Origin: Lachnospiraceae bacterium
GTDB taxonomy: Bacteria; Bacillota; Clostridia; Lachnospirales; Lachnospiraceae
Length of the DNA: 64,000 bases
Assembly (NCBI GenBank): GCA_014803415.1
Contig: JAAVBZ010000045.1
Span: 186,001 to 250,000 of the forward strand
Reading direction: 5' to 3'
Shown here: positions 1 to 40,074 of the stretch, piece after piece
Layout: every line of letters starts with the position of its first letter
How positions within the stretch are numbered: the first letter of the stretch is position 1
Program-made: the position numbers and the translations under genes
Notes under the pieces: model-generated
The model's input: only the letters and a program-made list of their open reading frames with translations
Database searches by the model: none
Told to the model about the DNA's origin: nothing

Positions 1-1
1 T

Positions 2-1042
2 TTTAAAAATTCAGGTATCAAAGAAGTACAATTTTCTGATAACCTAAAGGCGGTGGGAGAAGAAGCATTTGCGAACTGTAATTTGATTTCTGTCAAATTT
101 CCTGATCAGCCGATAGCGATAGGATCCCGGGCTTTTGCAGAAAATGAAAAGCTATGGAAAGTACTTTTTCAAAATGCCGGAAGTGCAATAGAAGAGGATT
201 CTTTCATAGAATGTGATCCTGATCTATTGGTGTGCTGCGGCGAAAAAGAGGAAGAAAAAAAGAACCGGGTCAGACAGTTTGCCCATGATCATGATCTGGA
301 ATATCTGGAAATTCTTATGTCTAAGGAGCCGATTGTCAATTATCCCGCAGAGCTGGCAACGCTGCATCCGGAAGTGAAAGGATTCTTTTACGGAGAAGAC
401 GGGGATTATGATGCAGAGGGATATTGGGATTTTGAAATGAGTGAAGAAGCTCCCAACTTTGGCTTTATAGACTGGCATCTTCCCGGCTGTTCCACATGGT
501 GCGGCTGTTATGGTTTTACGCAAGAAGCAGAAGCAACATCTGAGCTGGCATCTGATAGCGGAAGGTATGATGCCGAAAATATATTAAGACAAAACAGATA
601 TCTTGCGTGGGCAGAAGGTGCGGATGGCCCGGGAATCGGAGAAAGTATTACTTATTGGCAAAGTTGTGAATACTCTGTGCCTGACAGATTTGGAGGTATC
701 AGTAAAGAAGATAAATACAGTGGGCCTTTTTGGGATGGATTTATGCGATACTCTGAGATATGTATTGTAAACGGTTATGCCAGAGATTCAAAAACATGGG
801 AAGAAAACGGACGTGTTAAAACCCTTTTGATGAAAGTAGAAGGTAAGCCATATGCTTATCTAGAACTGGAAGATACGATTCTGCCGCAGTATTTTACTCT
901 GCCGGAGAATGATATTATGGTGTACAGCGGAGAAATGATAGAGTTTGAATTTGTCATTGAGGAGGTATATCCGGGAAGCCTTTATGAGGATACCTGCCTG
1001 ACAGGTATTGTTATGGAATTCACGGGAAGGTATGCACACTAG
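2..1042 (+). CDS. BspA-type leucine-rich-repeat protein with C-terminal NADase-type glycan-binding domain (5' end outside window)
   Basis: The frame is open to the left edge, so the true start lies outside the window; the GTG at 53 is only an internal codon. The first ~55 residues read as LRR_5 (BspA-like) repeats of the form 'GIKEVQFSDNLKAVGEEAF', i.e. a short beta strand followed by an 'IG..AF' turn. After a charged linker, the last ~150 residues carry 'AWAEGADGPGIGE', 'NGYAR', 'NGRVKTL' and 'VYPGSLYEDTCLTGI'. These match my memory of the discoidin-like NADase-type glycan-binding domain, a carbohydrate-binding module of secreted and cell-wall proteins. The protein is therefore probably surface-exposed and binds a glycan. 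A Cys-rich patch 'CSTWCGCYG' lies between the two parts. The domain assignment rests on motif recognition. The LRR assignment is firmer. Confidence 0.75.
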   Translation, partial: FKNSGIKEVQFSDNLKAVGEEAFANCNLISVKFPDQPIAIGSRAFAENEKLWKVLFQNAGSAIEEDSFIECDPDLLVCCGEKEEEKKNRVRQFAHDHDLEYLEILMSKEPIVNYPAELATLHPEVKGFFYGEDGDYDAEGYWDFEMSEEAPNFGFIDWHLPGCSTWCGCYGFTQEAEATSELASDSGRYDAENILRQNRYLAWAEGADGPGIGESITYWQSCEYSVPDRFGGISKEDKYSGPFWDGFMRYSEICIVNGYARDSKTWEENGRVKTLLMKVEGKPYAYLELEDTILPQYFTLPENDIMVYSGEMIEFEFVIEEVYPGSLYEDTCLTGIVMEFTGRYAH

Positions 1043-1068: not shown

Positions 1069-1878
1069 ATGAAATATCTATTTGAAAAAGCATATAAATG
1101 GATAGTGATAGTTGTTATATCTGTTCTTATTTCCCATCCTTCTGAGGGATTGGAGCCAGTCAAAGAATTGCCTGGAGTTTCAACAGAGATTGATGTTGAA
1201 AATCCAAAAGTAGAGAAGGAAAACAAAACCTGCAGTATAAATTCCAATGCGTATTTTTATGCTGAGGAAGAAACAGCACATACATACGAGGGTTATTTTT
1301 ATCTGCATAGTTATACAGATTTATGGCAGGATATTGATCTATATATAAAAAAGCTTCAGAGTTTTCACGATGGAGCATTATATGCTTTAGAATTAGAACA
1401 GCCAACCTCTTCAGATCCCTATGATAATCTGCTGGATCGTAAATACATTGGCTATTTTTATGTTACAACTGAGAACATTTATTATTTACCGGTTAATGCC
1501 GAGGGCTATACCCAAGAAAATAACAACAGCATTATTAGCCAGATAAAGAGTGATGAAGCAAAGTTTCTGGAACGATGCACAGTAGTCTGCTGTGAAAATG
1601 GAACGGAAGATATTATCGATGAAAATGGATATCATGCTTTTGTGGAAGTGGAAGGGGAAAAAAGAATATTCCGTTATTATAATGACTATTTTTATGGCTC
1701 AAAAGGTTATATCTTGATGGTATGGGAGAAAGGAAAGGGCCTAATTTACTATATGCATGGTAATGGCTCAAAAAATATGCATGTGGAATTTGGAAATAAT
1801 ATAAAAGAGGAACAGGGTGTGGATTATGGATATCCGTACAAACTGACCGAAGGAGAAGAATTACTGTTGACTGAATGA
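1069..1878 (+). CDS. secreted or membrane-anchored protein of unknown function
   Basis: 269 residues, ATG preceded by GAGGTG. The N terminus (KYLFEKAYKWIVIVVISVLISHP) has a short basic part and one hydrophobic stretch, consistent with a signal peptide or N-terminal anchor. The remainder is acidic and rich in Tyr and Phe ('AYFYAEEETAHTYEGYFYL', 'IGYFYVTTENIYYLPV'), suggesting an extracellular beta-rich fold. I recognise no domain. It starts 26 bases behind the glycan-binding LRR gene and is probably cotranscribed with it, so it may act at the cell surface with it. No function is proposed. Confidence 0.7.
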   Translation: MKYLFEKAYKWIVIVVISVLISHPSEGLEPVKELPGVSTEIDVENPKVEKENKTCSINSNAYFYAEEETAHTYEGYFYLHSYTDLWQDIDLYIKKLQSFHDGALYALELEQPTSSDPYDNLLDRKYIGYFYVTTENIYYLPVNAEGYTQENNNSIISQIKSDEAKFLERCTVVCCENGTEDIIDENGYHAFVEVEGEKRIFRYYNDYFYGSKGYILMVWEKGKGLIYYMHGNGSKNMHVEFGNNIKEEQGVDYGYPYKLTEGEELLLTE

Positions 1879-1895
1879 TTGTAAAATATTATGAT
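1867..1895 (+). promoter_or_regulatory. sigma-A promoter of the cobalamin riboswitch transcript
   Basis: TTGACT at 1867-1872 and TATGAT at 1890-1895 are separated by exactly 17 bases. The -35 box overlaps the last codons of the preceding gene. Transcription would start near 1902, directly before the first conserved riboswitch nucleotides. Confidence 0.65.
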
Positions 1896-1902
1896 AAAAA
1901 CT

Positions 1903-2090
1903 GTATTGTTTGGGGAAACAGGTGAAAATCCTGTACGAGCCCGTCGCCGTAAGGCATAGATGAAATACTGTTAACCTGACCTGAAGCCACAATTCAGGGA
2001 AAAGCCATTGGAGTATATCTGAGAAGACCGGTTAAAAGAGTGCCAAGTCGAAATATCCAGGCAAGACAAATCCTCTATTTTATAACTGCG
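1903..2090 (+). promoter_or_regulatory. cobalamin riboswitch
   Basis: The leader of the DUF4430/ECF genes contains the ordered conserved blocks of a cobalamin aptamer: 'GGTGAAAATCCTGTACGAG' near 1921, 'CCGTCGCCGTAAGGC' after it, 'GAAGCCAC' at 1983-1990, 'GGGAAAAGCC' near 1998, and a B12-box-like 'AAGTCGAAATATCC' followed by AGGC near 2045-2062. The B12 box departs from the commonest form (AGYCMGGAGACCTGCC), so a subclass of the family is possible. Downstream, TCCTC near 2071 can pair with GAGGA near 2105, and the Shine-Dalgarno AAAGGAGAG is near 2120; this could be the expression platform. Known members repress uptake or synthesis genes when cobalamin is bound. Confidence 0.85.
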
Positions 2091-2136
2091 AGTGCCGGTT
2101 TTTTGAGGAAATAAAAATCAAAGGAGAGTTAAGGAT

Positions 2137-2592
2137 ATGCAAAAGAAATGTAGTAAAAAATTATTGTCATTTATCCTTTGTAATGCGCTTATTGTGGCTA
2201 TGGCGTTGTTTACGATCGGTTGTAATGGCAGCACAGGCAATAGTACGCCTTCCGGAACCGGAACAGAGGTGAATGTACAGGCTGATTCCGGTCAGCTTGG
2301 AGAGGGCAGTACGAAATTCAATTTTACTGTGGTGGATAAAGACGGCAATGAAACACAGTTTGAGATCCATACAGACAAAGAAACTGTAGGGGAAGCCCTG
2401 ATGGAGCTTGAACTGATCGCCGGGGAAGAAAGCGAATATGGTCTTTATGTGAAAACAGTCAATGGCATAACTGCCGATTATGACAAAGACGGCGTTTATT
2501 GGGCATTTTATGTCAATGATGAATATGCAGCCACCGGCGTCGATTCTACTACCATAACAGAAGGGGATAGTTATTCCTTTAAGGTTGAATAA
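2137..2592 (+). CDS. DUF4430 (transcobalamin-like C-terminal domain) lipoprotein
   Basis: 151 residues. Residues 1-29 form a lipoprotein signal peptide ending in the lipobox 'FTIGC', with Cys29 as lipidation site. A Ser/Thr/Gly-rich linker follows, then a DUF4430 domain over about residues 58-151: 'FNFTVVDKDGNETQFEIHT', 'VGEALMEL', 'YWAFYVNDEYAATGVDS' and 'TITEGDSYSFKVE'. This fold is the beta domain that caps cobalamin in animal transcobalamin and intrinsic factor. The gene lies directly behind a cobalamin riboswitch and three bases before an ECF S component. I infer a surface-tethered protein that binds cobalamin or a corrinoid and hands it to the transporter. Binding is not shown by the sequence. 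Confidence 0.85.
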   Translation: MQKKCSKKLLSFILCNALIVAMALFTIGCNGSTGNSTPSGTGTEVNVQADSGQLGEGSTKFNFTVVDKDGNETQFEIHTDKETVGEALMELELIAGEESEYGLYVKTVNGITADYDKDGVYWAFYVNDEYAATGVDSTTITEGDSYSFKVE

Positions 2593-2594
2593 GT

Positions 2595-3104
2595 ATGAAG
2601 CTTACGATCAGGGAGATTGCCGTTTTTGGAATGCTTGGGGCTGTTATGTATGCTTCAAAGATGATCATGGAATTGATACCCAATGTACATCTGCTTGGCG
2701 TATTTACAGTTGCGTTTACAATTGTATACAGAAAAAAAGCATTATATCCGATTTATACTTATGTGATTTTGAATGGTATTTTTTGCGGGTTTGCCACATG
2801 GTGGATTCCCTATTTATATTTATGGACGATTCTTTGGGGCGTAGTTATGCTTCTTCCAAAAAGAATACCGAAAAAAATACAGCCTGTTGTGTATATGGCA
2901 GTATGCGCGGCACATGGATTTTTATTCGGAACACTATATGCTCCGGCGCAGGCAATCATCTATGGACTGAGCTTTAAGGGAATGATAGCCTGGATCATAG
3001 CGGGGCTGCCTTGGGATTGTATTCATGGTATCAGTAATTTCTTGTGCGGAGTGCTGATCGTGCCGATCGCTTCGGTATTAAAGCTTGCAGAAAGGAAGAT
3101 ATGA
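2595..3104 (+). CDS. ECF transporter S component, probably for cobalamin
   Basis: 169 residues with about five or six hydrophobic segments ('IAVFGMLGAVMYASKMIMEL', 'HLLGVFTVAFTIVY', 'YVILNGIFCGFATWW', 'MIAWIIAGLPWDCIHG'), as in S components of energy-coupling-factor transporters. S components bind the vitamin and share an energising module (EcfA, EcfA', EcfT) encoded elsewhere; none is in the window. The ATG lies three bases after the DUF4430 stop, so the genes are translationally close and under the same cobalamin riboswitch. Cobalamin is inferred from that riboswitch. The AxxxA-type helix expected to contact EcfT is not obvious. Confidence 0.8.
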   Translation: MKLTIREIAVFGMLGAVMYASKMIMELIPNVHLLGVFTVAFTIVYRKKALYPIYTYVILNGIFCGFATWWIPYLYLWTILWGVVMLLPKRIPKKIQPVVYMAVCAAHGFLFGTLYAPAQAIIYGLSFKGMIAWIIAGLPWDCIHGISNFLCGVLIVPIASVLKLAERKI

Positions 3105-3148: not shown

Positions 3149-4207
3149 TTATTCAGACTTAACTTCTTTCCAGAGATTGTTATACAGTGCATCCCCTTCT
3201 TCACCAAGATAGTGGAAGGTCTCCAGATTTTGATACTGGCTAAAATCCGGAAAAGCAATCTTGGAATTTTTAATATCTTCATCCTCGATCAGAGCCTGTG
3301 CGGCAGTATTGGGAGTGGAGTAAGTAATATATTCAAAGTTCATAAGTGCGATATCTTCCCGGCACATAAAATCTATAAATTTTTCTGCATTTTCCATGTT
3401 AGGAGCATTCTTGGGGATAACCCATGCATCGATCCATACATTAGTTCCTTCCTTTGGAATAACGTATTCCAGATTTTCATTTTCACGCTGAGTATAAATA
3501 GCTTCTCCGGAATAAATGACGCCGATAGCAGCCTCATCTCCGATCATTTTATCCCGTACCTGATCGATAACATAGGCCTGGACAAGAGGCTTTTGTTCTA
3601 TCAGGGAATTTTTGGCGATCGCAAGTTCTTCTTCATTTACAGTATTCATGGAATAACCATTCAGTTTTAGAGCGACCATAAAGGCATCTCTGACAGAATC
3701 CTGCATCAAAATATTATCGGTGTATTTTTCATCCCACAGAATAGACCAGCTGTCTACAGTCTCATCTACCATGGTCTTGTTATAAAGGATACCCACAGTG
3801 CCAAAGCAGTAGGGAACAGCATATTTGTTTTCGGGATCAAATTCTTTTGCCTGCTCAAAATATTGCTGACCTATATTTTTGATATTAGGAATATTGTCAA
3901 AATTAATCTCAGCAAGCAGATCATTATCGATCATCTTCTGGATCATGTAATCAGAGGGGCAGATCACATCATAAGCAGTAGCACCAGCCTCAACTTTGGG
4001 ATACATTACTTCGTTGGTCTCAAATTCATCATATACTACTTTGATACCTGTTTCTTCTTCAAACATGGTAATCGTTTCAGGATCAATATATTCACCCCAG
4101 TTATAAACAATGACTTCGCCGTTTTCACCGCCTTTGCTGCCGCAGCCTGTTAAGGTGAGAGAAAGAGTGCTGCAGAGAATAAGAACGATACTTAAATATT
4201 TTTTCAT
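3149..4207 (-). CDS. potD: spermidine/putrescine-binding lipoprotein PotD
   Basis: 352 residues. A lipoprotein signal peptide ends in 'LTGCGSKG' (Cys22). The mature part is a periplasmic-binding-protein fold of the polyamine family: 'VYNWGEYIDPETITMFEEET', 'YDVICPSDYMIQKMI', 'AVPYCFGTVGILYN' and 'WIDAWVIPKNA'. It captures polyamine outside the membrane and delivers it to PotBC. It is the last gene of the potABCD run, 19 bases behind potC, and ends at a strong bidirectional terminator. The acidic and aromatic pocket residues expected for polyamine binding (Trp in NWGEY, Asp in PSDYM) are present, but spermidine versus putrescine preference cannot be read from this. Confidence 0.95.
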   Translation of the reverse strand: MKKYLSIVLILCSTLSLTLTGCGSKGGENGEVIVYNWGEYIDPETITMFEEETGIKVVYDEFETNEVMYPKVEAGATAYDVICPSDYMIQKMIDNDLLAEINFDNIPNIKNIGQQYFEQAKEFDPENKYAVPYCFGTVGILYNKTMVDETVDSWSILWDEKYTDNILMQDSVRDAFMVALKLNGYSMNTVNEEELAIAKNSLIEQKPLVQAYVIDQVRDKMIGDEAAIGVIYSGEAIYTQRENENLEYVIPKEGTNVWIDAWVIPKNAPNMENAEKFIDFMCREDIALMNFEYITYSTPNTAAQALIEDEDIKNSKIAFPDFSQYQNLETFHYLGEEGDALYNNLWKEVKSE

Positions 4208-4226
4208 AATAAGACTCCCTTCAAAA

Positions 4227-5009
4227 TTAATGCTCTTTCTGCTTTTTCTCAGCAGGAGCTCTATTTACTAACAGTAAAAGTATTAATACAGTTATAAAGA
4301 TAAGCGTTGACAGCGCATACATTTCCGGCTTGATCCCTTTTTTTACTTCGGTATAGATCTTGGTAGATAAGGTATCCACGCCGGCGCCTTTCGTAAAGTG
4401 TGTAATAATAAAATCATCCAGCGACATGGTGAAAGCCATTAAAAAGCCTGAAAGCACACCGGGCAATATGTCAGGAAAGACCACTTTGAAAAATCCGTAT
4501 ACAGGTCCGGCTCCCAGATCAAGGGCTGCTTCATAGGTACTTTTGTTTAGCTGTTTCATTCTGGGCATAACGCTTAAGATCACATAAGGAATGCAAAAAG
4601 TGATATGGGACAGTAATATGGTGCCGAAACCAAAACGAAGCCCCAGACTGATGAAGAGCAGCATCAGGGAAATCCCTGTTACGATATCCGCGTTCAGCAT
4701 AGGAATATTGGTAATTCCCATAATGATATTACGGGAACGTTTTTTCATAGTTATAATGGCAATACAGGAGGCAGTGCCCACTACGGTGGCAACGACAGAT
4801 GCAATAAGGGCAATTGCCAGAGTATTGAAAAGCGCCTGCATGATATCGTTGTTTTTAAATAAAGCGCCGTACCATTTTAAAGTAAAGCCGCCCCATTTAG
4901 CCCTTGTTTTGCTGGCATTAAAAGACAGAACCATAAGCGTAACAATAGGAGCGTATAAAAATATGAAAATAAGAGAAACATAAATTTTTCTGGCAGCATT
5001 TCTGATCAT
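4227..5009 (-). CDS. potC: polyamine ABC transporter permease PotC
   Basis: 260 residues with about six membrane segments and the EAA-type loop 'YEAALDLGAGPVYGFFKVVFPDILPGV' region that contacts the ATPase. It forms the channel with PotB. Its ATG overlaps the potB stop by four bases (ATGA), so translation is coupled. Length and order (A-B-C-D) match the family. The N terminus '[22 protein letters not shown]' leads straight into the first helix. Confidence 0.95.
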   Translation of the reverse strand: MIRNAARKIYVSLIFIFLYAPIVTLMVLSFNASKTRAKWGGFTLKWYGALFKNNDIMQALFNTLAIALIASVVATVVGTASCIAIITMKKRSRNIIMGITNIPMLNADIVTGISLMLLFISLGLRFGFGTILLSHITFCIPYVILSVMPRMKQLNKSTYEAALDLGAGPVYGFFKVVFPDILPGVLSGFLMAFTMSLDDFIITHFTKGAGVDTLSTKIYTEVKKGIKPEMYALSTLIFITVLILLLLVNRAPAEKKQKEH

Positions 5010-5827
5010 AATACCGAACCCTCCCCATCTTTATCAAAGATTGAAGAAACTACCATATTTACAATAATAAAGAGCATCAGTACGATAGACAGACCACTGC
5101 CTAAATGCCAGTTGCTGGCCTGGGTAAATTCCTGTTCCACTACATTACCGATCAGCAGGATCTTGCTTCCGCCCAGAATATTGCTTATTACAAAAGTAGT
5201 AAGAGCCGGAATAAATACCATGGTAATGCCGCTGATGATTCCGGGGACAGTCAGTGGAAGCGTAATTTTAAGGAAAACCTGAAGTCCATTTGCGCCCAGG
5301 TCCCTTGCCGCGTTGATCACATTTCCGTCAATCTTGGCAAGCGTATTGTAAATAGGCAGAACCATAAAAGGCAGAAAATTATATACCATACCAAGTACGA
5401 TAGCATAGGGCGTATTGATGATATTTAGCGACGGCAGATGGAAAAATGCCAGAATACTGTTGATAACGCCTGTTTTTTCAAGTAAAGTCTGCCATGCCAA
5501 TGTACGGAGCAGAAAATTCATCCACATGGGCAGGATGAAGATCAATACAATAAAGCTATGCTGACTTACATTCATTCTGCATAGGATCATAGCAAGGGGG
5601 TAGGCAAGTAAAAGGCAGATCACTGTGGATATCAGGGAAAGTAAAAGTGCCAGCCATAAAGCCTTGCTGTGTTCAGGTGATCCGATGGAAAGAATATTTG
5701 CAAGGGTAAAAGCACCGCTTTTATCTGTCAGTCCGTAATAAAATACCATGCATAAAGGAACTATGATGAATATGACAGACCAGATAAAATAAGGTGTGCC
5801 CAGTAATTTCTTTTTCGTGTTATTCAT
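5006..5827 (-). CDS. potB: polyamine ABC transporter permease PotB
   Basis: 273 residues from the ATG at 5827 ('[20 protein letters not shown]'). An upstream ATG at 5848 would add seven residues, but the GAGGAGG sequence lies between the two and can only serve the downstream start, although its spacing is long (~12). The chosen start overlaps the potA stop by eight bases. There are six predicted membrane segments and an EAA loop '[20 protein letters not shown]'. With PotC it forms the transmembrane channel of the polyamine importer. Confidence 0.93.
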
Positions 5828-6893
5828 CGATCTTAGCGGCCTCCTCATCCTCTGAAGCAGGTTTGTTCATGATCTGGATATTGAAAGGATCCACATCAAT
5901 TCCCACTTCTGTTCCTACCGGGAACATACTGGTGGAGTGTACCAGCCATTCATAACCGTTTGCTGTAACTTCCATTTCATAGTGAACGCCTTTAAAAATA
6001 AGGTGAGTAACAACACCTTTGATCCTGCCGGCAGCCGGAGCGGAGAGGATCACGTCTTCAGGACGTATCACCACATCTACCGGTTTGCCGCATCCAAAGC
6101 CCGTATCCACGCAGGGAAATCTGGTGCCGAAAATCTCAACCAGTTTATCTTCGATCATAGTGCCGCCAATGATATTGCTGTCTCCGATAAAGTCTGCTAC
6201 AAAGGCGTTTTCAGGCTCATTGTAGATCTTTTCGGGTGAGCCGATCTGCTGGATATACCCCTGATTCATAACAACGATCGTATCTGACATGGTCAGTGCC
6301 TCTTCCTGATCATGGGTGACATAAATAAATGTAATGCCAAGTTCATTTTTAAGGCGGATCAATTCATACTGCATATCCTGGCGGAGCTTTAGATCAAGAG
6401 CGCCAAGGGGCTCATCAAGAAGCAGGACCTTAGGTTCATTCACGATCGCCCTTGCAATGGCAATACGCTGTTGCTGGCCGCCGCTTAAAGAATCGGGCAT
6501 ACGTTTTTCATAACCTTCCAGATTGACAAGTTTTAAAGCATATTTTATTTTGTCATCTATGTAAGATTTGCTTTTATTTTTAATTTTCAGGCCAAAAGCA
6601 ATATTATCTGCAATGGTCATATGAGTAAAGAGAGCATATTTTTGAAAAACAGTATTGAGTTGCCTTTTGTTGGGCGGCATTTTGGTAATATCTGTTCCGT
6701 TAAAAATAACATTTCCCTTATCGGGAGCCTCAAAGCCGCCCAAGATCCGCAGAGTAGTGGTCTTGCCGCATCCGCTGGGACCAAGAAGGGTAAGAAATTC
6801 GTTTTCCCTGATATAAAGGTTTAAATCGTCCAGAACCATCTGGCCGTCAAAGGATTTGGTGATGTGTTGTAAATCGATTAAAATCTTGTTCAT
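5820..6893 (-). CDS. potA: polyamine ABC transporter ATP-binding protein PotA
   Basis: 357 residues. Walker A '[16 protein letters not shown]', Q-loop '[10 protein letters not shown]', signature '[14 protein letters not shown]', Walker B 'VLLLDEP', H-loop 'THDQEEAL'. The C-terminal ~100 residues form the regulatory TOBE-type domain ('[13 protein letters not shown]', '[17 protein letters not shown]'). It powers polyamine import through PotBC. The Shine-Dalgarno AAGGAGGAG lies well placed before the ATG. It starts 32 bases after the XRE-cupin regulator, so the regulator is the first gene of the operon. Confidence 0.96.
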
Positions 6894-6925
6894 GGAAAAC
6901 TCCTCCTTGTAAAGGTAACTTATCT

Positions 6926-7465
6926 TTAGAAGCTTGGCGGAGTACTGACCCAGATCAGCACAGCACCTGTTTTTTCACTAGCTTTAATATAATGTGTGGC
7001 ACTGGGAGTAAAATAAAAGGATTCTCCCTTTTTTACCTTAATGGTACGCTTACCGATCATAAGCCGGATACTGCCGGATAATACATAGCCGAATTCTTCA
7101 CCCTCATGGGGATTATCGGGATAAGTGGAGCCGCCGGGGGCTAAGGTGAGCCGAATGGGTTCCATCATGTTCTTTTGAGCATTGGGAATGATCCATTCTA
7201 CTTTATTTTTTAATTCTTCATCTACTTTTTCAAAGTAATCCGATTCTTTAAATGCGATCTGTTCATCATCTGAATCATCAAAGAAATCTTTTAAATCAGT
7301 ACCAAGACACTGCAGAATATCGATCAACGTAGCTATGGAAGGAGAAGTCAGATCTCTTTCAAGCTGTGAAATGAAACCTTTGGACAGCTCACAGCGGTCG
7401 GCAAGTTCCTCCTGGGTCAGGTTTTTCTGAATCCGTAGATCTTTGATTTTGTTACCTATCTGCAT
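6926..7465 (-). CDS. XRE-family regulator with C-terminal cupin domain, likely controls polyamine uptake
   Basis: 179 residues from the ATG at 7465, preceded by AGAAAGG. The longer open frame reaching 7546 has no ribosome site and runs into the promoter region. Residues 4-60 form a helix-turn-helix ('[20 protein letters not shown]', '[17 protein letters not shown]'). Residues ~105-178 form a cupin_2 sensor ('[20 protein letters not shown]', '[17 protein letters not shown]'). This architecture is that of PuuR-like polyamine regulators. It is the first gene of the transcript that continues into potABCD, so it probably autoregulates. Its ligand is an inference from context. Confidence 0.9.
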
Positions 7466-7518
7466 AAATCGTACCTTTCTGATCAATGTCTGTATTTGGC
7501 TCCCGGAAAAGAAATAAT

Positions 7519-7544
7519 AAACTGAAAGTTTACTAACACTAAAC
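7519..7544. promoter_or_regulatory. candidate operator of the XRE-cupin regulator
   Basis: Two overlapping short inverted repeats: AAACT-gaa-AGTTT at 7519-7531 and GTTTA-CTAACAC-TAAAC at 7528-7544. They lie just downstream of the likely transcription start of the regulator/pot operon, where a bound repressor would block transcription. Inferred from symmetry and position only. Confidence 0.4.
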
Positions 7545-7560
7545 ACAGGCGCTGATACTC

Positions 7561-37590: not shown

Positions 37591-40074
37591 ATGAATCGTA
37601 ATGAGTTTGAAAAGCTGACATCTGAAAGAGTGATTTTTCTGGATGGTGCCACTGGTTCTAATCTGATCAAAAGAGGTATGCCCGCGGGGGTATGTCCTGA
37701 AAAATGGATTTTGGAACATGAAGATATTTTTGTAGGGCTTCAGAAGGAATATGTGGAGGCGGGCAGCAACATTATTTATGCGCCTACCTTTACGGCAAAC
37801 CGCATTAAGTTAAAAGAATATGATCTTCAGGATGATATTGTCCGTATTAATACGCAGTTGGTGGCATTGTCAAAGCAGGCGGCAGGCGACAAGGCGCTGG
37901 TCGCAGCTGACCTTACCATGACCGGGGAACAATTAGTTCCTATGGGCAGAATGGAATTTGAAGATCTTATTGACATATACAAAGAACAGATCCGTATTAC
38001 TTGCGATGCAGGAGCTGACCTTATTGTAGTAGAGACTATGATGAGTCTGCAGGAGACGAGGGCAGCATTAATTGCAGCAAAAGAAGTCTGCGACCTGCCT
38101 GTTATGGCAACGCTGACATTTGAATCAGACGGAAAAACACTCTATGGAACTGATGCAGTAACAGCAGCTGTCACGCTTGAAAAATTAGGTGCATGCGCCA
38201 TTGGAGCCAATTGTTCTACCGGCCCCGACAAAATGTTGGAAGTGATCACTGCAATTTCACAAGTGGTGTCCATACCTGTGATCGCAAAGCCAAATGCCGG
38301 ACTTCCTGCACTGAATGATCAGGGGGAAACGGTTTATGATATGGAAGAACCTGCCTTTGTGGAAGGAGTAAAGGAACTGGTAAAAGCCGGAGCCTCTATT
38401 GTCGGCGGATGCTGCGGAACCTCTCCTGCCTATATCAAAGCTCTTTCAGATGCATTGAAAGGGAAGGAACGGCAGATCAGAAAAGAACAGCTTAAAAAGA
38501 AGGAATTCCGGGAAGGGATCAGACACCTTACTTCCGAAAGGCAGACAGTAAGTTTTGGTCTTAATGATCCTTTTATGATCATAGGAGAGCGAATCAATCC
38601 TACAGGTAAAAAGAAACTGCAGGAGCAGCTTCGTGAAGGCAGTCTGGAAATGGTTCTTGATTTTGCAATGCAGCAGGAAGACTGCAGCGCGGCGCTTTTA
38701 GATATTAACGTGGGAATGAGCGGTGTTGATGAAAAGGAGATGATGTTGAAGGTACTGGAGGAAGTAACAGTGGCTTCCCCGCTTCCTTTGTCACTGGATT
38801 CCAGCCATATAGATGTGCTGGAAGCAGGTCTTAGAAAATATCCGGGAAGGGCGCTTATCAATTCCATTTCAGCAGAAACTGAAAAACTGGAAAAATTGCT
38901 TCCCCTTGCAAAGAAATATGGCGCTATGTTTATCCTTCTTCCTCTTTCAGATGAAGGACTTCCTGCAAATTTGGATGAAAAAATTGCAATTATTGAGAAA
39001 ATAGTACAGAAAGCCTGCAGCTTAGGCCTGACTAAAGAAGATATTATCGTAGATGGCCTTGTTGCTACGGTAGGTGCCAATCCTGATGCAGCAAAAGAAG
39101 TACTTGAAACCATACGATATTGTAAAAAGAACGGACTGGCTACGGTGTGCGGCCTCTCCAATATTTCTTTCGGTCTGCCGGAAAGAAGTTTTGTAAATAC
39201 AGCTTTTTTGACTATGGCGATACAGGAAGGGCTGACTATGGCAATTGCCAATCCTTCTCAGGATCTTCTGGTAAATGCAGCATTTGCAGCCGACCTTCTA
39301 ATGAATAAAGAAGGGGCTGACATACGCTATATTGAACGAATGGAGGCATTTAAGGAGCGAAAACCGGCAGCTGCTTTGCCTGTTATAACAGGAAAGGAGA
39401 CACTGCCGGCTCAGAGTATAAAGCAGGATAAAGATCTTCTTTCTCGTGGACAGGTTTATCATGATGTCATGAAAGGAAACCGAAAGCAGATAAAAGAGCA
39501 TACAAGGGCTCTTGTAGAATCCGGAATAGAGCCTCAGAAAGTTTTAAATGAGATGCTGATGCCGGCCATCAATGAAGTAGGTATCTTGTTCGATCAGGGA
39601 AAATACTTTCTGCCGCAGTTGATCGCCAGTGCGGAAGCTATGAAGCTATCCATCGAATATCTGGAGCCCTTGCTGGCATCCGGAAGAGAACAGGAAGAAA
39701 TGCCGGCTGTAGTTATTGCCACAGTTGCCGGAGATATACATGATATCGGGAAAAATCTGGTGTCCATGATGTTCAAGAATTATGGATTCCGGGTAATTGA
39801 TCTGGGAAAAGATGTACCGAAAGAAACCATTATTGAAGCAGCGAAAGCACATCATGCAGCGATCATTGCCCTGTCTGCCCTGATGACTACTACTATGCAG
39901 GAAATGAAGCATGTGATCGACTATGCGAAGCAGCAAAAGATAGATGCCAAAATTATGATCGGCGGAGCAGTCATTACACAGGAATATGCAAAAGAGATCG
40001 GTGCAGACGCTTATTCTAAGGATGCAGCTGATGCGGTACGAGTCGCCAAGCAGCTTCTGGGCATAGACGATTAG
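37591..40074 (+). CDS. metH: cobalamin-dependent methionine synthase without the reactivation domain
   Basis: 827 residues. It transfers a methyl group from methyltetrahydrofolate through cobalamin to homocysteine. Homocysteine domain ~1-300 with zinc ligands Cys208 ('GANCSTGP') and Cys274-Cys275 ('GGCCGTSPAYI'); pterin domain ~320-590 ('FMIIGERINPTGKKKL', 'ALLDINVGMSGVDEKEMM'); helical cap ~615-690; B12 domain ~700-827 with base-off ligand His717 in 'AGDIHDIGKNLV'. The AdoMet activation domain of E. coli MetH (1227 residues) is absent, as in other clostridial enzymes, so reactivation needs a separate protein. No cobalamin or SAM riboswitch precedes it. Confidence 0.94.
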   Translation: MNRNEFEKLTSERVIFLDGATGSNLIKRGMPAGVCPEKWILEHEDIFVGLQKEYVEAGSNIIYAPTFTANRIKLKEYDLQDDIVRINTQLVALSKQAAGDKALVAADLTMTGEQLVPMGRMEFEDLIDIYKEQIRITCDAGADLIVVETMMSLQETRAALIAAKEVCDLPVMATLTFESDGKTLYGTDAVTAAVTLEKLGACAIGANCSTGPDKMLEVITAISQVVSIPVIAKPNAGLPALNDQGETVYDMEEPAFVEGVKELVKAGASIVGGCCGTSPAYIKALSDALKGKERQIRKEQLKKKEFREGIRHLTSERQTVSFGLNDPFMIIGERINPTGKKKLQEQLREGSLEMVLDFAMQQEDCSAALLDINVGMSGVDEKEMMLKVLEEVTVASPLPLSLDSSHIDVLEAGLRKYPGRALINSISAETEKLEKLLPLAKKYGAMFILLPLSDEGLPANLDEKIAIIEKIVQKACSLGLTKEDIIVDGLVATVGANPDAAKEVLETIRYCKKNGLATVCGLSNISFGLPERSFVNTAFLTMAIQEGLTMAIANPSQDLLVNAAFAADLLMNKEGADIRYIERMEAFKERKPAAALPVITGKETLPAQSIKQDKDLLSRGQVYHDVMKGNRKQIKEHTRALVESGIEPQKVLNEMLMPAINEVGILFDQGKYFLPQLIASAEAMKLSIEYLEPLLASGREQEEMPAVVIATVAGDIHDIGKNLVSMMFKNYGFRVIDLGKDVPKETIIEAAKAHHAAIIALSALMTTTMQEMKHVIDYAKQQKIDAKIMIGGAVITQEYAKEIGADAYSKDAADAVRVAKQLLGIDD

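Follow-up and report, generated by a model that had tools for sequence, protein, structure and literature searches.

The 64,000-nucleotide stretch analysed here (the window; contig JAAVBZ010000045.1 of the Lachnospiraceae bacterium assembly GCA_014803415.1, forward-strand positions 186,001 to 250,000, numbered from 1) carries a variant cobalamin riboswitch followed by two genes only, the first for a lipoprotein with a DUF4430 domain and the second for the S component of an energy-coupling factor (ECF) transporter. Judging by sequence comparison, this pair very probably serves the uptake of cobalamin or another corrinoid, and we consider it likely that the whole is a minimal cobalamin (corrinoid) import cassette. 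The link to cobalamin comes from three sides, namely the riboswitch, the profile homology of the S component to CbrT, and the presence of a DUF4430 gene in the place of cbrS in the Lactobacillus cluster. A first-pass annotation of the window had proposed the same order of riboswitch, DUF4430 lipoprotein and ECF S component, which we confirm with one correction: the gap between the genes, given there as three bases, is two bases long from the lipoprotein stop codon to the ATG of the S component. The parts of the cassette are as follows.

1867..1895, plus strand: predicted sigma-70-type promoter of the cassette, TTGACT-17-TATGAT (10/12 match to the consensus)
1904..2113, plus strand: variant cobalamin riboswitch, aptamer and downstream hairpin (RF00174, our model R1, covariation in 11 sequences)
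1907..1914, plus strand: 5' strand of the closing helix (helix 1), pairing with 2056-2063
2045..2058, plus strand: variant B12 box, AAGTCGAAATATCC (alignment A3, 11 sequences, most columns invariant or nearly so)
2056..2063, plus strand: 3' strand of the closing helix, partner of 1907-1914
2071..2109, plus strand: outer arms TCCTC (2071-2075) and GAGGA (2105-2109) flanking the CGAGTGC hairpin (read from the sequence, outside the pairs counted for covariation)
2084..2100, plus strand: hairpin, conserved, with CGAGTGC as its loop; a candidate for L13 in the expression platform (helix 8; 100% of cells paired over the 4 pairs counted)
2121..2126, plus strand: ribosome-binding site AAGGAG, 10 bases ahead of the ATG (read from the sequence)
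2137..2592, plus strand: DUF4430 (transcobalamin-like, SLBB) lipoprotein, 151 amino acids, proposed corrinoid-capture partner (Pfam, profile, lipobox-like motif)
2595..3104, plus strand: CbrT-type ECF S component, 169 amino acids (profile, fold, tree)

The variant cobalamin riboswitch

The cobalamin riboswitch of the first-pass annotation was recovered by covariance search, with an Rfam RF00174 match at 1875-2050 scoring 38.6 bits (gathering cut-off 31.5). Eleven sequences sharing this riboswitch form, the window counted, were picked by eye from the upstream regions of relatives. The model R1 that we built from these 11 scores 208 bits at 1904-2113, a score to which the window contributes as a member of the training set. 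The 40-pair structure of these sequences has 92.7% of its cells paired, as opposed to at most 49.5% when the partners are slid, and both sides are altered in 24 of the 40 pairs, as opposed to 5-12 after sliding and a mean of 12.0 after shuffling. The structure was set by eye and from an RNAalifold consensus, and being derived from the same 11 sequences it is favoured by construction, yet the gap is large, and a chance riboswitch match is ruled out by these figures. Folding of the leader as a single sequence did no better than shuffles (z 0.21).

The closing helix has 8 pairs, 4 of which have changed at both positions (87.5% of cells paired), and its 3' strand, which lies just after the B12-box equivalent, covaries with the extreme 5' end of the riboswitch. 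The Rfam alignment places the B12 box at about 2018-2033, a placing that we rejected because in the 11 aligned sequences the equivalent of the box, like the closing helix, is found further 3'. Across these sequences the box reads AAGTCGAAATAYCC with few exceptions and small differences; the version in the window departs from the common form, as had already been remarked, and it is for this departure that we call the riboswitch a variant. The hairpin with the CGAGTGC loop would belong to the expression platform and is a candidate for L13. Its outer arms end 11 bases ahead of the ribosome-binding site and a scan of the leader found no intrinsic terminator, and on these two grounds we would guess that control acts at translation. 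The riboswitch is predicted to bind cobalamin and thereby to lower expression, i.e. to be of the OFF type.

The prediction of a promoter of the cassette's own ahead of the riboswitch also held on inspection: promoter-type sites matching the consensus at 9/12 or better stand just 5' of the riboswitch in 9 of the 11 aligned sequences (window counted), versus 8% of Markov-shuffled controls. Promoter-like sites across the region as a whole show no clear excess over chance (7 found, 5.2 expected, standard deviation 2.4).

When R1 was run on 200 genomes of the same family, 12 places scored 148-208 bits, followed by one at 76.8 bits (G084, also at a DUF4430/S-component pair) and then by scores of 55.6 and less. 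Eleven of the 12 places are the training sequences, all at a DUF4430/S-component pair, and the twelfth (G022) lies at a contig end, its downstream gene falling beyond the contig. Wherever the gene downstream could be read, the variant riboswitch was thus found nowhere else in the 200 genomes, with the caution that searches of more than 40 genomes use filters that lose weak matches.

The S component and its relation to CbrT

Taken alone, the S component has no Pfam match above cut-off and reaches CbrT only at an E-value of 0.11. A profile of 30 S sequences has a sole match among 177635 PDB sequences, and this is CbrT (6fnp_A, E 8.9e-22), with profile positions 4-164 aligned on residues 8-175; the solved S components for folate, riboflavin, thiamin, biotin and pantothenate were not reached by this profile at E-values up to 10. 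The AlphaFold model has a mean predicted local distance difference test score (pLDDT) of 95 and an S-component fold. Alignment of the model with VIA-align shows that fold and not the specificity, a Foldseek search gave no match at E 0.001, and superposition on CbrT leaves 8% identity. In the tree the S family groups with CbrT at modest support (82/86), the sole proven row of another kind being one long-branch riboflavin-type protein. A DxxHxxxN motif was rejected as a mark of the family, since it is present in 16/16 members of a more distant S group too. The profile match to CbrT and the modelled fold thus bear out the earlier call of an ECF S component, and comparison at the protein level supports one of the cobalamin kind.

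CbrT is the cobalamin S component of ECF-CbrT, a biochemically proven importer with high-affinity binding (9.2 nM) and ATP-driven transport (PMC5997447). According to the same source CbrT also binds and transports cobinamide, and the cassette might accordingly import another corrinoid (cobinamide or a different cobamide) that the cell remodels. The affinity of CbrT for cobalamin is reported to be about four times that for cobinamide, however (PMC5997447), and we regard such a substrate as improbable.

The DUF4430 lipoprotein and the place of cbrS

The description of the first gene product as a lipoprotein with DUF4430 as its only domain stands: Pfam PF14478 matches at 38.9 bits (cut-off 23.8), no other domain exceeds its cut-off, and the N-terminus has a signal and a lipobox-like TIGC with Cys29. 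A DUF4430 profile (A2, 33 sequences) matches PDB 3u7z at 4.1e-37, a solved relative (RUMGNA_00854) named as a putative metal-binding protein, and matches human haptocorrin (4kki) at 4.9e-5 in an alignment that spans the beta-hairpin insert region. In transcobalamin, the hairpin insert that follows the helix contacts cobalamin (Burroughs 2007, PMC1796856). By crude patterns, a lipobox-like motif is found in 19 of the 20 close-pair partners, the remaining one being a fragment, whereas the 36 rows of distant-pair partners (G033 counted twice) comprise 28 with an N-terminal helix-like stretch, 6 with a lipobox-like motif and 2 with neither. These comparisons support a transcobalamin-like protein with a predicted surface anchor.

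With the PDB stretch of CbrT as query we obtained six Lactobacillus-type loci, and in four of them a DUF4430 gene lies directly before cbrT, above the Pfam cut-off (65.2-74.2 bits). Three of these (L117, L119 and L120) have the DUF4430 gene between nrdJ and cbrT and an adenosyltransferase gene after cbrT, the flanking genes being named by Pfam in L117 and by eye in L119 and L120; in the fourth (L122) DUF4430 is immediately ahead of cbrT and nrdJ is absent. One further locus (L118) has a DUF4430 fragment match only (0.0011), and the last (L121) has no DUF4430 match at cbrT. The cluster has been named nrdJ-cbrS-cbrT-pduO, with cbrS mentioned once in the text (PMC5997447), and by this order the DUF4430 gene occupies the place of cbrS. 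We infer that it is cbrS in Lactobacillus delbrueckii. The L117 locus comes from a Faecalicatena absiana assembly (Lachnospiraceae); it is 98% identical to L. delbrueckii CbrT and may be a contaminant.

Pairing of DUF4430 and S component across genomes

The S component has 59 matches in 56 of the 200 same-family genomes, and for 54 of the 59 Pfam recognises DUF4430 no more than 800 bases upstream on the same strand; our own DUF4430 profile adds G033 and G092, which brings the count to 56. The other three (G103, G070 and G182) lie in operons with DUF4430 proteins and with EcfT-like and ATPase genes (EcfT read from the sequence), and in G070 and G182 the S domain is fused to ATPases. The pairing of DUF4430 with this S component is nearly constant.

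In a sample of the phylum, 95 of 398 genomes match the S profile, and 30 loci, including that of the window, were fetched. Apart from the window, 13 loci score E 1.8e-18 or better, 12 of them with a DUF4430 neighbour, and the 16 weaker loci (L136-L151) have no directly adjoining DUF4430 gene. This more distant group had been considered as a counter-example and was dropped, because wider flanks, taken for 12 of the 16, contain DUF4430 genes in 11 (typically one large and one smaller protein). EcfT is present in all 12; the ATPase pattern was scored in 7 of them, and in the remaining loci it was recognised by eye. At L204 no DUF4430 lies within 3.9 kb upstream of the EcfT gene.

Two loci, L091 (6774-10952) and L195 (13480-17064), encode a DUF4430 and an alpha/alpha toroid domain in one large surface-type protein, both above the Pfam cut-off. 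These proteins combine both halves of animal transcobalamin, and a CbrT-related S component, EcfT and EcfA are encoded in the same operons. S-layer domains occur in addition at L195, L090 and L094 have a toroid match that falls short of the cut-off, and a fusion of the S domain with ATPase domains is seen at L090 and L091.

Riboswitch linkage among relatives

A cobalamin riboswitch at most 2000 bases upstream on the same strand was recognised for 15 of the 21 S matches with at least 50% identity. Of the six close matches without one, two (G001:C20 and G101:C36) are cut short by the end of their contig. A cobalamin riboswitch is also present at 5 of the 13 mid-range loci. Three of the 27 riboswitches counted among the 59 S matches score under the Rfam cut-off (G161, G107 and G131). 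Before the 32 S matches without RF00174, no other riboswitch class was seen on the same strand just upstream. At L085 there is a T-box leader on the opposite strand. At L023, a pair without a cobalamin riboswitch, the DUF4430 gene is closely preceded on its own strand by a Clostridiales-1 RNA (RF01699; 2473-2626, minus strand), an RNA that is not known to be a riboswitch; at L067 the same RNA (6840-7002, plus strand) stands on the downstream side of the pair.

In 13 of the 20 close-group genomes no further cobalamin riboswitch is listed above 25 bits. The other seven have a second one: by Pfam, the genes downstream at L190 are the cobalt chelatase CbiK, a periplasmic-binding protein, FecCD and an ATP-binding cassette (ABC) ATPase, and at L189, where two genes were tested, CbiK and FecCD, i.e. 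a BtuFCD-like route; the remaining five loci, read by eye, are similar. Three genomes whose close pairs lack a recognised riboswitch (G192, G100 and G187) carry an ordinary cobalamin riboswitch before a CbiK/FecCD-type operon, identified by Pfam in G187 and by eye in G192 and G100.

The host cell

The source genome measures 4.26 Mb in 48 contigs and is 97% complete with 9% contamination. A likely consumer of the vitamin is encoded in the window itself, outside the operon:

37591..40074, plus strand: cobalamin-dependent methionine synthase MetH (PF02310 at contig 225709-226038; open reading frame)

The best NCBIfam match of this protein is metH, at 498.7 bits, below the cut-off of 1010.85. Radical-SAM proteins with B12-binding domains are also present in the genome, and only two TP_methylase genes, too few for building the corrin ring. 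The cell thus probably needs B12 from outside and, as far as the TP_methylase genes show, seems unable to build it. No second cobalamin riboswitch was found in the whole genome, searched up to E 1, and the DUF4430/S-component pair is the only riboswitch-controlled B12 route found there.

An EcfT gene and two ABC ATPase genes lie on contig C8, next to genes recognised by eye as rpoA, rplQ, truA, rplM and rpsI, and there are two further EcfT-like genes, one beside a CbiM-like gene and one beside a riboflavin-type S component. The two-gene pair itself has none of the BtuCDF make-up (FecCD permease, binding protein and ATPase). BtuF and BtuCD had been described as absent from the window, and indeed the only FecCD match of the genome sits on another contig (locus L110, contig C10). 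The FecCD set of L110 has two neighbours, one gene with a TP_methylase domain and one that is oxidoreductase-like, and its best family names are mostly of the iron type, all below cut-off.

The proposed uptake route

In the route that we propose, low cellular cobalamin would permit expression of the mRNA through the variant riboswitch; the surface lipoprotein would then capture the corrinoid and hand it over to the S component, the presumed high-affinity cobalamin-binding subunit in the membrane, which would borrow the housekeeping ECF module encoded among the ribosomal-protein genes. What we infer in this scheme is the substrate, the OFF-type control, the use of the housekeeping module, the binding of corrinoid by the lipoprotein and the handover. 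A two-part route had already been put forward in the first-pass annotation, and the cobalamin riboswitch, the transcobalamin-like surface protein, the S component of the cobalamin kind and the near-constant pairing all speak for it, whereas its binding and handover steps keep their conditional standing. Binding and delivery of cobalamin by the lipoprotein are putative, and we lean towards them.

Several observations weigh against the proposal. A cobalamin riboswitch is recognised upstream of only 12 of the 38 distant S matches (below 50% identity), and at none of the six Lactobacillus-type loci, so that the question of whether the pair mostly occurs without such riboswitches receives one answer among close relatives and another among distant ones. 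In the search with the DUF4430 profile, intrinsic factor scored 0.02 and ranked under an unrelated lipoprotein signal-peptide match (0.011), and the alpha/alpha toroid, which contributes the second half of the binding site in the animal proteins, is missing from the lipoprotein. Among 146 DUF4430 matches in the 200 genomes, 92 have no adjoining S match, some of them sitting in larger operons. The FecCD/binding-protein/ATPase set of the source genome, which has no cobalamin riboswitch, might carry corrinoids as well, and with 9% contamination genes on other contigs are possibly foreign. Finally, ECF-CbrT of L. delbrueckii transports cobalamin and supports growth in Escherichia coli, and the constructs described there consist of CbrT and the ECF module (PMC5997447), from which it follows that a lipoprotein-type partner is not strictly needed there.

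The last point suits a different role for the lipoprotein, in which the S component imports cobalamin and the lipoprotein is an assembly partner that gates or stabilises it, or helps it to reach the ECF module, with no binding of free corrinoid. ECF-CbrT functions in E. coli with no partner named (PMC5997447), the lipoprotein has the beta half only of the transcobalamin site, and the lipobox-like motif or N-terminal helix found by crude patterns in 53 of 56 partner rows would suit a subunit that touches the S component. However, the cobalamin-contacting hairpin region of transcobalamin (PMC1796856) falls in the part aligned with haptocorrin, and related operons with two DUF4430 proteins, some with toroid domains, suit ligand capture. 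We consider the assembly role to be unlikely and keep capture and delivery as the preferred function of the lipoprotein.

The 26 of 38 distant matches that have no recognised cobalamin riboswitch upstream could also be taken to mean that the ligand is not a corrinoid at all, the riboswitch and the homology being misleading here, as they perhaps are in branches without the riboswitch. Yet CbrT is the sole sequence relative in the PDB, and the CbrT loci themselves have a DUF4430 neighbour and no riboswitch, so that a missing riboswitch does not imply another ligand. We consider a non-corrinoid ligand very improbable and retain a corrinoid as the substrate.

Genes around the cassette

Upstream, a protein of 700 amino acids (window 1-1042, the open reading frame extending further upstream on the contig) has BspA-type leucine-rich repeats, a C-terminal domain matching NADase_transloc (87 bits) and, by eye, a lysozyme-type cell-wall domain at its start. 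Between this gene and the riboswitch, an open reading frame of 269 amino acids (1069-1878) has no Pfam match, and the cassette promoter overlaps its end. Downstream, the genes at 3149-6893 on the minus strand, convergent with the cassette, resemble a spermidine/putrescine transporter, with permeases recognised by eye and a binding protein whose best name, PotD, is below cut-off; a regulator with helix-turn-helix and cupin domains follows at 6926-7546.

Relation to known systems

Capture of B12 is important where gut bacteria compete, and it is better understood in Bacteroides than in Gram-positive bacteria. ECF transporters are generally regarded as functioning without extracellular binding proteins. 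A plausible, still tentative, reading is that the CbrT clade forms an exception, the transcobalamin-like lipoprotein being a dedicated substrate-delivery protein across many Bacillota, in arrangements from two-gene cassettes to large operons of surface proteins (some toroid-bearing), with cbrS as such a partner; the riboswitch of the close pairs would be a variant in its own right, its B12 box rewritten and its ligand preference perhaps altered. Should the lipoprotein indeed deliver B12, ECF transport assisted by a binding protein would be a novel arrangement, a counterpart in bacteria to the carriers of animals. The present analysis connects the 2007 SLBB/transcobalamin prediction with the 2018 work on the CbrT transporter and singles out, beside a transporter already purified and reconstituted, a partner gene that can be tested. 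The variant riboswitch lends itself to asking which B12-box positions are required.

The idea of capture is not new, since Burroughs 2007 (PMC1796856) predicted such proteins, found in operons with CbiO-/CbiQ-like genes, to be scavengers of B12 or its precursors. As far as the literature searched shows, the present work adds a cassette of two genes in which a CbrT-type S component stands alone, the kind of gene that occupies the position of cbrS, and the variant form of the riboswitch. Our search found no paper that joins DUF4430 or SLBB with a cobalamin ECF S component; Rodionov 2009 may say more, and we make no claim of absence from print.

Among known systems, ECF-CbrT of L. delbrueckii (6fnp) is like the proposed one in having an S component that works with a shared ECF module, in a profile relation of nearly full length, and in the DUF4430 gene just before cbrT in four of the six Lactobacillus-type loci. 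It differs in that those loci lack the cobalamin riboswitch and three of them are flanked by nrdJ and an adenosyltransferase gene, whereas here there are a riboswitch and two genes only. Human haptocorrin is similar in its C-terminal domain, and intrinsic factor weakly so, but in these proteins an alpha/alpha toroid is added and no lipid anchor is known, whereas the bacterial protein is a lone domain with a predicted anchor. In Bacteroides, the surface lipoproteins BtuG and BtuH are reported to capture B12 for an importer; these belong to Gram-negative outer-membrane systems and are likened to the present lipoprotein by description only. The proteins of Burroughs 2007 (PMC1796856) share with ours a secreted or anchored domain resembling the C-terminal domain of transcobalamin, a predicted role in B12 scavenging and an association with ECF-type genes; in contrast to those operons with their CbiO-/CbiQ-like genes, the cassette described here has an S component on its own, which would rely on the housekeeping module, and includes a riboswitch.

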